Below, piece by piece: positions 18,577-21,445 of a stretch of DNA of 64,000 nt. The notes beneath the pieces were generated by a model that saw only the letters and a program-made list of their open reading frames with translations, searched no databases and was not told the origin of the DNA. Within the stretch, counting starts at the first letter, position 1; each line of letters starts with the position of its first letter. A program made the position numbers and the translations under genes. This DNA is from Caballeronia sp. LZ062 (GTDB taxonomy: Bacteria; Pseudomonadota; Gammaproteobacteria; Burkholderiales; Burkholderiaceae), in the NCBI RefSeq assembly GCF_031450785.1, contig NZ_JARTWB010000002.1:2108001-2172000 (forward strand), written 5' to 3'.

Positions 18577-20043
18577 ATGAACATCATCGAACCCGGCATC
18601 CGCAACCTGGTCACGGCGAAGGACGTTCTCCTGACGCCGTACGGCCTCGACGAGGGTCTCATCACGCGCACGCTCGCGGAGATCTTCACGCATCGCGTCG
18701 ATTACGCCGATCTGTACTTTCAGTCCACGCGCAGCGAGGCGTGGAGTCTGGAAGAAGGCATCGTGAAATCAGGCAGTTTCAGCATCGATCAGGGCGTCGG
18801 CGTGCGCGCCGTCTCGGGCGAGCGCACGGCTTTCGCCTATTCCGACGATCTTTCGCCCGACTCCATCCGCCAGGCCGCACTCGCCACGCGGGCAATCGCC
18901 AAGGCGGGCGGCGGCAAGCACAAGATCAAGCCGGCGAGCACGCTCACGGGCGTCTCGGGCCGCGACCTGTACGTGCCCGCCGATCCGCTCCATTCGCTCG
19001 ATGCCAATGCCAAGGTCAAACTGCTGGAGCGCGTCGAACAGATGGCGCGCGGCCGCGATCCGCGCATCACGCAGGTGATGGCCGGCCTCGCGGGCGAATA
19101 CGACGTCGTGCTCGTCGCGCGCAGCGACGGCGCGCTGGCGGCGGACGTGCGGCCGCTCGTTCGCGTGTCGGTAACGGTGATCGCCGAGCAGAACGGCCGG
19201 CGCGAGATCGGCACGGGCGGCGGCGGCGGTCGCTTCGACTACGGCTATTTCACGGACGATATCTTGTCGAAGTACGTCGATGACGCCGTGCATGCGGCGC
19301 TCGTCAATCTCGAAGCGCGCCCTGCCCCGGCGGGCGCGATGACCGTCGTGCTCGGGCCGGGCTGGCCGGGCGTGCTGCTGCACGAGGCGGTCGGACACGG
19401 GCTGGAGGGCGATTTCAACCGCAAGGGATCGTCGGCGTTTGCGGGCCGCATCGGCGAGCAGGTGGCGGCGAAGGGCGTCACCGTGGTGGATGACGGCACG
19501 CTGCCGAATCGCCGCGGCTCGCTCAATATCGACGACGAAGGCAACCCGACGCAGTGCACGACGCTGATCGAAGACGGCATTCTGAAGGGCTACATTCAGG
19601 ACTCGCTCAACGCGCGCCTGATGAAGATGCCGGTGACGGGCAACGCGCGCCGCGAGTCGTATGCCGCGCTGCCGATGCCGCGCATGACGAACACGTACAT
19701 GCTCAACGGAGACAAAGATCCGCAGGAGATTCTGGCGTCGGTGAAAAACGGCTTGTACGCGGTGAATTTCGGCGGCGGTCAGGTGGATATCACCAACGGC
19801 AAGTTCGTGTTCTCGGCGTCCGAGGCATACATGATCGAGGACGGCAAGATCACGTACCCGGTGAAGGGCGCGACGCTGATCGGAAGCGGCCCCGAGTCGC
19901 TCAAATACGTGACGATGATCGGCAACGACATGTCGCTGGATAGCGGCGTGGGCGTGTGCGGCAAGGAAGGCCAGAGCGTGCCGGTGGGCGTCGGTCAGCC
20001 GACGCTGCGCATCGAGAAAATGACGGTGGGCGGCACGATCTGA
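18577..20043 (+). CDS. tldD: Metalloprotease TldD
   Basis: The larger partner of the TldD/TldE zinc protease, which degrades unfolded peptides and processes some modified peptides. The 488-residue protein contains the zinc motif HEAVGH within [15 protein letters not shown], the conserved [11 protein letters not shown] and the C-terminal [27 protein letters not shown] region (here split over two visible blocks). The partner TldE is not in the window. It is the last gene of the yhdP-nit-tldD group and is followed by the aroG leader region. Confidence 0.96.
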
Positions 20044-20127: not shown

Positions 20128-20157
20128 TTGTCACCGCCGCCTGTTTGAGGTTATAAA
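20128..20157 (+). promoter_or_regulatory. Promoter of the aroG leader
   Basis: TTGTCA (20128-20133) and TATAAA (20152-20157) with an 18-nt spacer make a good sigma70-type promoter. Transcription would start near 20164, about 30 nt before the leader peptide ATG at 20195. The predicted transcript contains the whole attenuator. Position and spacing are seen; activity is inferred. Confidence 0.65.
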
Positions 20158-20194
20158 GACGGTCAACCTTTTTGCGATGCGCCCTTTGCTCACC

Positions 20195-20260
20195 ATGTCC
20201 GCCAAGTTTTATTTTTATTTCTTTTGGCATCTCAAGCCGCTGGCGGATCGAGAGGGGTGA
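20195..20260 (+). CDS. aroG leader peptide rich in Phe and Tyr
   Basis: A 21-residue open frame whose codons 5-11 read Phe-Tyr-Phe-Tyr-Phe-Phe-Trp (20207-20227), an extreme run of aromatic codons. An in-frame ATG at 20177 could lengthen it by six residues; neither start has a strong Shine-Dalgarno. Such peptides act by ribosome stalling when the charged tRNAs are scarce. The run is followed by segments that can fold into alternative hairpins before aroG, whose product makes the first intermediate of Phe, Tyr and Trp. Function is inferred from this arrangement. Confidence 0.8.
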   Translation: MSAKFYFYFFWHLKPLADREG

Positions 20261-20327
20261 GTCGTAGGTTTCAAATACGCAAAACCGAATTCCCGAAAAA
20301 CCGCCAGCGAGTCTGGCGGTTTTTTTT
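20198..20327 (+). promoter_or_regulatory. Transcription attenuator controlling aroG
   Basis: The segments of a classical attenuator can be placed. Segment 1 is TCCGCCA (20198-20204), inside the first leader codons. Segment 2 is CGCTGGCGG (20238-20246). Segment 3 is CCGCCAGCG (20301-20309). Segment 4 is CTGGCGG (20313-20319), followed by eight T. Segments 1:2 pair over 7 bp, 2:3 over 9 bp and 3:4 over at least 7 bp. Stalling on the aromatic codons would mask segment 1, release segment 2 to pair with 3 and prevent termination. The leader stop codon (20258) lies just past segment 2, so an unstalled ribosome would cover it and let the terminator form. Confidence 0.8.
20301..20327 (+). terminator. 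Intrinsic terminator of the aroG attenuator
   Basis: CCGCCAG, loop CGAGT, CTGGCGG, then eight T. Flanking A and T runs could extend the stem to about 12 bp. It lies 45 bp before the aroG start, so it must be read through for aroG expression. Confidence 0.88.
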
Positions 20328-20371
20328 CGCCTTACCTTTTTTGCTCAGAACATTGCCGTTGGAGAATCGCC

Positions 20372-21445
20372 ATGCCCCCGCACAACACCGATGACGTTCG
20401 TATCCGTGAGTTGAAGGAGCTCGTCCCGCCCGCGCACTTGATCCGCGAATTTCCGTGCACCGAGCCGGTGTCCGATCTCATCTTCAACGCGCGGCAGTCG
20501 ATGCATCGCATTTTGCATGGCATGGATGGCCGGTTGATCGTCATCATCGGCCCGTGTTCCATTCACGATCCGAAGGCGGCGCTGGAATATGCGGGGCGGT
20601 TGATCGAACAGCGAAAGCGGTTCGCGGGCGAACTCGAAATTGTGATGCGCGTGTATTTCGAAAAGCCGCGCACGACGGTCGGCTGGAAGGGGCTGATCAA
20701 CGATCCGTATATGGATAACAGCTTCAAGATCAACGACGGTTTGCGGGCCGCGCGCGAATTGCTTATGCATGTCAATGAGCTCGGGCTGCCGGCTGGGACG
20801 GAATATCTCGATATGATCAGCCCGCAGTACATCGCGGATTTGATTTCGTGGGGCGCGATTGGCGCGCGGACGACCGAGTCGCAAGTGCATCGGGAATTGG
20901 CTTCGGGGCTTTCGTGTCCGGTCGGATTCAAGAATGGCACGGATGGCAACGTAAAAATCGCGGTCGATGCGATCAAAGCCGCTTCGCAGCCGCATCATTT
21001 TCTTTCTGTGACGAAGGGCGGGCATTCGGCAATTGTTTCGACCGCCGGCAATGAGGACTGCCATATCATTCTGCGCGGCGGTAAGACGCCGAATTTCGAT
21101 GCGGCTTCGGTCGATGCGGCTTGCATCGATATTGGCAAGGCGGGATTAGCGGCGCGGTTAATGATCGATGCGAGTCATGCCAATAGCTCGAAGAAGCATG
21201 AGAATCAGATTCCGGTTTGTGAGGATATTGGGCGGCAGTTGGCGGCTGGCGAGGAACGGATTGTCGGCGTGATGGTGGAATCGCATCTTGTCGCAGGGCG
21301 GCAGGATTTGAAGGAAGGGTGTGAGCTTACTTATGGGCAAAGCGTTACTGATGCTTGTATTGGGTGGGAGGAAAGCGTCGGGGTGCTTGAAAGATTGGCG
21401 GAGGCGGTGAAGCAGCGGCGAATCAAAAGGGTTGGTGGCAATTGA
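20372..21445 (+). CDS. aroG: 3-deoxy-7-phosphoheptulonate (DAHP) synthase, class I
   Basis: Condenses phosphoenolpyruvate and erythrose 4-phosphate, the first step of the shikimate pathway. The 357-residue protein matches the AroG/AroF/AroH type: PCTEPVSDLIFNARQ, VIIGPCSIHDPKAALEYA, MRVYFEKPRTTVGWKGLIN, and MIDASHANSSKKHENQ near the C-terminus. A GGAG Shine-Dalgarno lies 8 nt before ATG. Expression is probably controlled by the upstream attenuator. By eye the last third of the gene is less GC-rich at third codon positions than its neighbours. Which aromatic amino acid inhibits the enzyme cannot be read safely. Confidence 0.97.
   Translation: MPPHNTDDVRIRELKELVPPAHLIREFPCTEPVSDLIFNARQSMHRILHGMDGRLIVIIGPCSIHDPKAALEYAGRLIEQRKRFAGELEIVMRVYFEKPRTTVGWKGLINDPYMDNSFKINDGLRAARELLMHVNELGLPAGTEYLDMISPQYIADLISWGAIGARTTESQVHRELASGLSCPVGFKNGTDGNVKIAVDAIKAASQPHHFLSVTKGGHSAIVSTAGNEDCHIILRGGKTPNFDAASVDAACIDIGKAGLAARLMIDASHANSSKKHENQIPVCEDIGRQLAAGEERIVGVMVESHLVAGRQDLKEGCELTYGQSVTDACIGWEESVGVLERLAEAVKQRRIKRVGGN

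Follow-up and report, generated by a model that had tools for sequence, protein, structure and literature searches.

In attenuators of the enterobacterial Phe leader (RF01859) and trp leader type, a leader ORF with codons for the product of the pathway precedes mutually exclusive antiterminator and terminator structures and a U run, a combination that recurs in the element described here, which is located upstream of aroG in Caballeronia sp. LZ062. In the trp leader of E. coli the leader stop codon comes no further downstream than the beginning of segment 2, and in mycobacteria leaderless cysteine uORFs serve as attenuators before a biosynthetic operon. Attenuation of DAHP synthase genes has been predicted in Acholeplasma, where aroF is preceded by a predicted leader, uORFC-13-1, that contains one or more Phe codons and has a terminator (PMC8632094), and for aroF and aroH of Shewanella (PMC2659441). 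Putative attenuators have been reported before tyrA-containing operons, one of them in Bordetella parapertussis (PMC1173090), and the TyrR and TrpR aromatic regulons have been described for gammaproteobacterial lineages (PMC5343134), all of this according to the portions of the four papers that were consulted.

A description of an aroG leader was not found in the literature searched, which was mostly without subscription papers. For Burkholderia cenocepacia, the consulted portions of PMC4603805, PMC5688073, PMC10175445, PMC6321483 and PMC7798474 contain no aroG leader; part of PMC5688073 refers to 82 short 5′ UTRs of this species in supplementary Table S3, and aroG may be among them. Nor is such a leader described in the portions covered of PMC2965389, PMC1173090, PMC7563307, PMC3110155 and PMC2864571. 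Scans with Rfam (release 15) produced no match that reached the gathering score, either in the window, that is, the whole stretch of 64,000 nucleotides that was analysed, or in 34 relatives; the Phe_leader model RF01859, aligned over its full length, scored 19 bits against the element, the gathering score being 55. From sequence comparison we conclude that the element is very probably a ribosome-mediated transcription attenuator for aroG.

Organization of the locus

The gene directly upstream, named tldD by NCBIfam, ends at 20043, and the promoter, leader ORF and terminator all sit between tldD and aroG. The preliminary description had assigned an attenuator to 20128-20371, and all of its parts and pairings were recovered at those positions:

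20128..20157, + strand: sigma-70-type promoter TTGTCA-18 nt-TATAAA (−35 TTGTCA at 20128-20133, −10 TATAAA at 20152-20157, spacer of 18 nt), from the sequence, with TATAAA kept in relatives
about 20162-20166, + strand: predicted transcript start
20195..20260, + strand: leader peptide ORF MSAKFYFYFFWHLKPLADREG plus stop (ATG at 20195, 21 codons, TGA at 20258-20260)
20198..20204, + strand: segment 1, TCCGCCA, which can pair with 20241-20247; specific to Burkholderiaceae
20207..20227, + strand: control codons Phe-Tyr-Phe-Tyr-Phe-Phe-Trp (FYFYFFW), from the sequence and the leaders of relatives
20238..20246, + strand: segment 2, CGCTGGCGG, inside the leader frame, with core GGCGG at 20242-20246; takes part in the 2:3 pairing
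20250..20257, + strand: purine, SD-like tract GAGAGGGG, 3′ of segment 2, from counts of SD-like motifs in relatives
20298..20327, + strand: intrinsic terminator with a 10-bp stem (3:4; arms 20298-20307 and 20313-20322), loop CGAGT and eight T (20320-20327), from the sequence and the alignment
20301..20309, + strand: segment 3, CCGCCAGCG, partner of either segment 2 or segment 4, from the pairing comparisons
20361..20365, + strand: GGAGA, ribosome binding site of aroG, from the sequence and the SD-like motif at aroG in relatives
20372..21445, + strand: aroG, DAHP synthase of 357 aa (NCBIfam NF006723)

The T run is separated from the aroG ATG (20372) by 44 bases, and the leader has an extra in-frame ATG at 20177. 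AroG scored 595.9 bits against NF006723 (cut-off 568); the closest named relative of this aroG is that of Burkholderia sp. 8Y (L032; 97% identity), followed by those of Caballeronia species. The genome harbors a second DAHP synthase gene (contig 3, 60% identity), and no such leader was found within 600 bases upstream of it.

Leader peptide and control codons

The aromatic run varies among relatives in the manner of a coding sequence. The five FYFYF codons contained 3, 7 and 42 minority cells at codon positions 1, 2 and 3, respectively, in an alignment of 33 rows, and 40 of the 42 third-position cells were T or C. Residues added before the run keep the frame in relatives, which begin with MFATK, MSFAK, MTANK or MLSAK. 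The 5.06-Mb genome (three contigs) has two sites with six TWY codons in a row, namely the leader and a low-complexity pyrimidine tract; this pattern gave 7 overlapping matches and the reversed-pattern control 6.

The preliminary description had read the run as a sensor of the joint supply of Phe, Tyr and Trp. Phe and Tyr hold up, being present in 27/27 and 23/27 divergent leaders, respectively, whereas Trp is not constant (15/27). Among 59 distinct FYFYF-type leaders Trp is codon 7 in 43, but this set was preselected by the FYFYF pattern (matched by 101 of 108 leaders), and the unselected residue count in the 27 leaders is to be preferred. On the sequences compared, the best reading of the sensed signal is Phe and Tyr, with Trp optional.

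Antiterminator and terminator pairings

Taken by itself, the fold of the element is ordinary (z −1.14; 25 of 200 shuffles fold equally well), so that the evidence for an attenuator is comparative. The terminator (3:4) is paired in 99.7% of cells of the clade alignment, with two pairs changed on both sides; the 9-bp 2:3 antiterminator is paired in 92.6%, as against 12-42% when slid, and shows no double change inside the Burkholderiaceae. Covariation was tabulated for 46 loci, 27 divergent and 19 from Burkholderiaceae, leaving out L125 and L196, which have no exact GGCGG, and L046, in which segment 3 is CCGTC. At position d0 of 2:3 we counted U-A at 27 loci, C-G at 6 and U-G at 5 (38/46 paired, p=0.0155), and at d2 G-C at 24 and C-G at 4 (31/46 paired, reached in 0 of 2000 shuffles), with no excess at d1 (37/46), d3 (21/46) and d4 (6/46); position d0 of 3:4 was A-U at 30 loci and G-C at 12 (43/46 paired). 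When each segment was scored with its own and with permuted partners, 2:3 gave 125 versus 84.8 (p=0.0002), and for 3:4 none of 5000 permutations did as well as the own partners. These two tests used 26 loci, with the near duplicates L119, L123, L175 and L193 taken out and L001, L084 and L094 included. In these comparisons, both 2:3 and 3:4 show covariation from family to family. Within single families the 2:3 covariation is not significant (p=0.20, 0.21), and because of this, and of the missing double change in Burkholderiaceae, the between-family 2:3 test is inflated by relatedness. Mutually exclusive antiterminator and terminator structures with a common segment, and a U run, are nevertheless present, and the comparison that the preliminary description had proposed, of a conserved leader frame and compensatory changes in 2:3 and 3:4, came out in favor of the attenuator at the between-family level.

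The same description included a 7-bp 1:2 pairing. The window does contain this pairing, which holds in 91.8% of the cells of the clade alignment; it overlaps conserved codons and has no double change. It did not exceed chance expectation either at three tested Trinickia loci (p from 0.26 to 0.99) or at the 27 divergent loci, one of which was at p<0.1 (combined p=0.59), so that it has no support outside the Burkholderiaceae, where segment 1 was dropped as a general element. A conserved protector hairpin was likewise not supported across the divergent loci. As a general design, the switch has three segments, segment 2 being masked by the ribosome itself as it moves along the leader.

The GGCGG core lies in leader frame 2, 0 and 1 at 38, 5 and 3 of the 46 loci, respectively; occurring in all three frames, it is therefore selected as RNA and not as peptide. 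The leader RNA or peptide might in addition act in trans, besides attenuation, in the way of peTrpL from the trp leader of Sinorhizobium (as given in the portion consulted of its description). Prediction indeed yields a separate RNA of about 165 nt, which is strongly conserved inside the Burkholderiaceae, but the peptide tail differs between families, and we consider an additional role of this kind unlikely. It is a good deal less probable that the nascent peptide with its PLADREG tail is a TnaC-like element that arrests ribosomes or detects a ligand: well conserved as the tail is inside the Burkholderiaceae, it is lost through a frameshift after the run in four relatives (L038, L040, L041 and L045) in which the segment 2 RNA is kept, and in other families, whose tails differ, the GGCGG RNA recurs in other frames.

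Purine tract after segment 2

An SD-like motif follows segment 2 at 87 of 96 loci (four loci being counted twice), made up of 22/27 divergent loci, 19/19 from Burkholderiaceae and 46/50 from three families, as compared with 15.8, 13.2 and 25.9 in the respective shuffles. Conservation of this tract could also be expected of a riboswitch-like RNA that binds a ligand or a protein instead of sensing the ribosome; however, we find such an RNA scarcely credible, since the run is conserved as codons, no Rfam model matches at gathering score, and no conserved fold was found beyond the attenuator stems. No pairing partner of the purine tract was supported. A local UCUC:GAGA hairpin around segment 2, found with RNAalifold (98.5% of cells paired), did equally well with a slide of +2 columns and no better with its own than with swapped flanks (264.5 versus 279.2, p=0.93), and was dropped. 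As part of the attenuator, the SD-like tract may delay the ribosome on segment 2 and so give the terminator time to form.

Geometry and proposed mechanism

The aromatic window begins 32-41 nt before GGCGG in the 46 loci, and the leader stop is located 5-26 nt after the GGCGG core in all of them and 1-25 nt after it in three further families. In the preliminary description the position of the stop codon was thought to fit the trp/phe type, which was mistaken, the stop actually coming after segment 2 in 46/46 loci. A ribosome of the usual footprint would have its edge at about 20234-20237 when stalled on the run. With the edge at 20234 or 20237 and the RNA extending to the end of segment 3, the 2:3 fold was obtained (−28.1 and −27.7), and with the edge at 20234 it was still preferred when segment 4 was included (−28.8); with segment 2 masked, the terminator folds (−25.5). 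The full transcript without a ribosome gave the terminator fold (−56.5), and the ribosome-free leader transcribed no further than segment 3 gave the 2:3 antiterminator fold (−39.0), which implies that an untranslated leader might not terminate well.

One can thus picture the following sequence of events, in which we infer the position of the start, the stalling of the ribosome and the reaction to Phe and Tyr supply. RNA polymerase would start near 20164 and a ribosome would begin on the SD-less leader. With plentiful charged tRNA-Phe and tRNA-Tyr, the ribosome would clear FYFYFFW and cover segment 2, and masking of segment 2 would allow 3:4 to form and transcription to end near 20327. Under a shortage of Phe- or Tyr-tRNA, the ribosome would come to a halt within the run, its front immediately short of segment 2; segment 2 would then pair with segment 3, so that the terminator would be blocked and aroG transcribed.

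Promoters and the predicted leaderless form

A simple promoter scan returned no match at 20128-20157; it missed the promoter of the element because it demands a T at the last −10 position. A TATAA box could be assigned in 68 of 80 loci (79 named relatives plus the element itself) and not in the other 12; the −35 region has TTG in 68/68 of the boxed loci, and TTG[CT]CA at a distance of 17-18 nt in 49/68. In Cupriavidus loci (L097, L099-L103, L106, L111 and others) the nearest TATAA is found about 167-170 nt before the run, and the leader transcript may therefore be much longer there.

The leader appears to be initiated without an SD sequence, since an SD-like motif was found before the leader at none of the 79 named loci and in 1/27 divergent leaders, compared with 64/79 before aroG in the named loci. 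The pre-leader windows have a low purine content, which accounts for the absence, shuffles of the same windows having the motif in 3%. In the window the −10 box ends 37 nt before the leader ATG, hence this leader is not leaderless and has a 5′ UTR of about 30 nt, with no SD. For Burkholderiaceae, the window included, the predicted 5′ UTR measures about 30 nt or more and is likewise SD-less.

A different arrangement is predicted for other families. Of 26 divergent leaders (the 27 divergent loci minus one without an ATG), 15, belonging to eight families, have a best sigma-70 −10 element that ends 6-9 nt before the leader ATG. Three of these eight families (f49, f23 and f13; L259-L325 and L252) were sampled further and have leader and terminator in 27/30, 22/30 and 6/8 of the loci examined. 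From these families 50 distinct leaders were tested, leaving out copies of the same sequence and loci without GGCGG, and in 42 of the 50 the distance from the end of the best −10 box to the leader ATG is 5-9 nt; the same placement was found at 0/50 aroG ATGs and in 2/50 shuffles. TANNNT is present at this place in 45/50 of these leaders and TGNTANNNT in 39/50. Since a transcript commonly begins some 7 nt past its −10 box, the leader mRNAs of the three families are predicted to be leaderless. In this form the leader ATG would be at about +1 to +4, with ribosomes loading on a bare 5′ end. Nothing in the analysis is more surprising than this leaderless form, predicted for other families.

Distribution

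A covariance model built from 33 non-redundant relatives gave a single match in the genome itself, exactly at the element (E=3.8e-25), and matched 159 of 200 genomes of the family, in 18 of 25 genera. Eight genomes with a possible extra match were inspected for second copies and had one strong match each; their 26 weaker matches were terminator-only (model positions ~99-135) except two, L215 and L218, which start at model position 45 and in which no aromatic leader was seen. Leader and terminator were both found in 79 of the 80 loci from named relatives. The sole exception, L087 from Candidatus Vallotia, has a decayed leader of which remnants are kept. At L015, from the same genus, a promoter lies directly before aroG and no leader or terminator was found upstream, possibly owing to an assembly error.

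A sample of 150 genomes from the order gave 115 with a match, and a part of these matches, 88 regions upstream of aroG (L113-L200), was classified for an aromatic-run leader and a CCGCC...GGCGG-T terminator; L112 was left out, and L180 and L182 belong to the family of the window. Leader and terminator were both present in 29 regions, neither in 52, the leader only in 1 and the terminator only in 6, a co-occurrence with a Fisher p of 2.9e-16 if relatedness is ignored. The leader by itself was found in 3/89 reverse strands and 11/890 shuffles. The 29 loci with both parts span 11 families, and in all of them the terminator is 40-140 nt 3′ of the aromatic run. The order sample overlaps with the family sets (L198=L252, L141=L292, L161=L299, L170=L308). 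Several f23 genomes have two adjacent DAHP synthase genes behind one leader, for instance G221:C1:2636363-2637403 and 2637480-2638529.

In other orders of the class 114 genomes were searched, of which 84 had a match, and the closest 29 loci, 28 of them outside the order, were inspected. L231 (complement of 2550-2850), from another order, was the one among these 28 to have the full architecture, with a ARFYRWYYFPKPPAEEGVRAF leader, CCGGCGG and a terminator. L253, also outside the order, has an aromatic run at −439, and no aromatic run was found in the rest of the 28.

That the terminator is an ordinary one for tldD, which is directly upstream here and in the flank of 67/80 named loci, and the short ORF incidental, can hardly be believed, given the promoter between tldD and the terminator, the leader and terminator without tldD upstream at 13 named loci (each of them one of the 79 that have a leader) and at 7 loci of the order sample, and the conserved leader codons. 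With regard to the attenuator, the coding of the leader, the 2:3 and 3:4 pairings, the geometry and the link to aroG are supported by comparison. The central proposal of the preliminary description, a ribosome-stalling attenuator before aroG, is thereby upheld, with leader frame, 2:3 and 3:4 conserved.

Significance and comparison with known systems

The element is a candidate for the control of DAHP synthase in Burkholderiales and would, by the scans made, represent a family of RNAs that Rfam release 15 does not include. The presence of GGCGG in three reading frames makes it possible to separate selection on RNA from selection on peptide without an experiment. On promoter prediction, we see about an even chance that in much of the Burkholderiales a leaderless, SD-free leader peptide together with a protector-less three-segment switch gates aroG by Phe/Tyr decoding. 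If true, leaderless leader peptides would mean that proteobacterial attenuation is possible with initiation at a 5′ end and no SD.

The element differs from the Phe and trp leaders in its target, which is aroG, in the alternation of Phe and Tyr codons, and in having neither an SD nor, outside the Burkholderiaceae, a conserved segment 1; unlike in the E. coli trp leader, its stop codon comes after segment 2. With the mycobacterial cysteine uORFs, the form predicted for other families would share a leaderless short ORF with codons of the regulated amino acid, but those are actinobacterial and concern cysteine, whereas here the codons are aromatic, the order is Burkholderiales, and the leaderless form is predicted from promoters and does not apply to the window. 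The Acholeplasma and Shewanella leaders have in common with the element the predicted attenuation of a DAHP synthase gene; however, they belong to other lineages, and the consulted portions of the two papers (PMC8632094, PMC2659441) describe neither such a Phe/Tyr run nor any member of the Burkholderiales.
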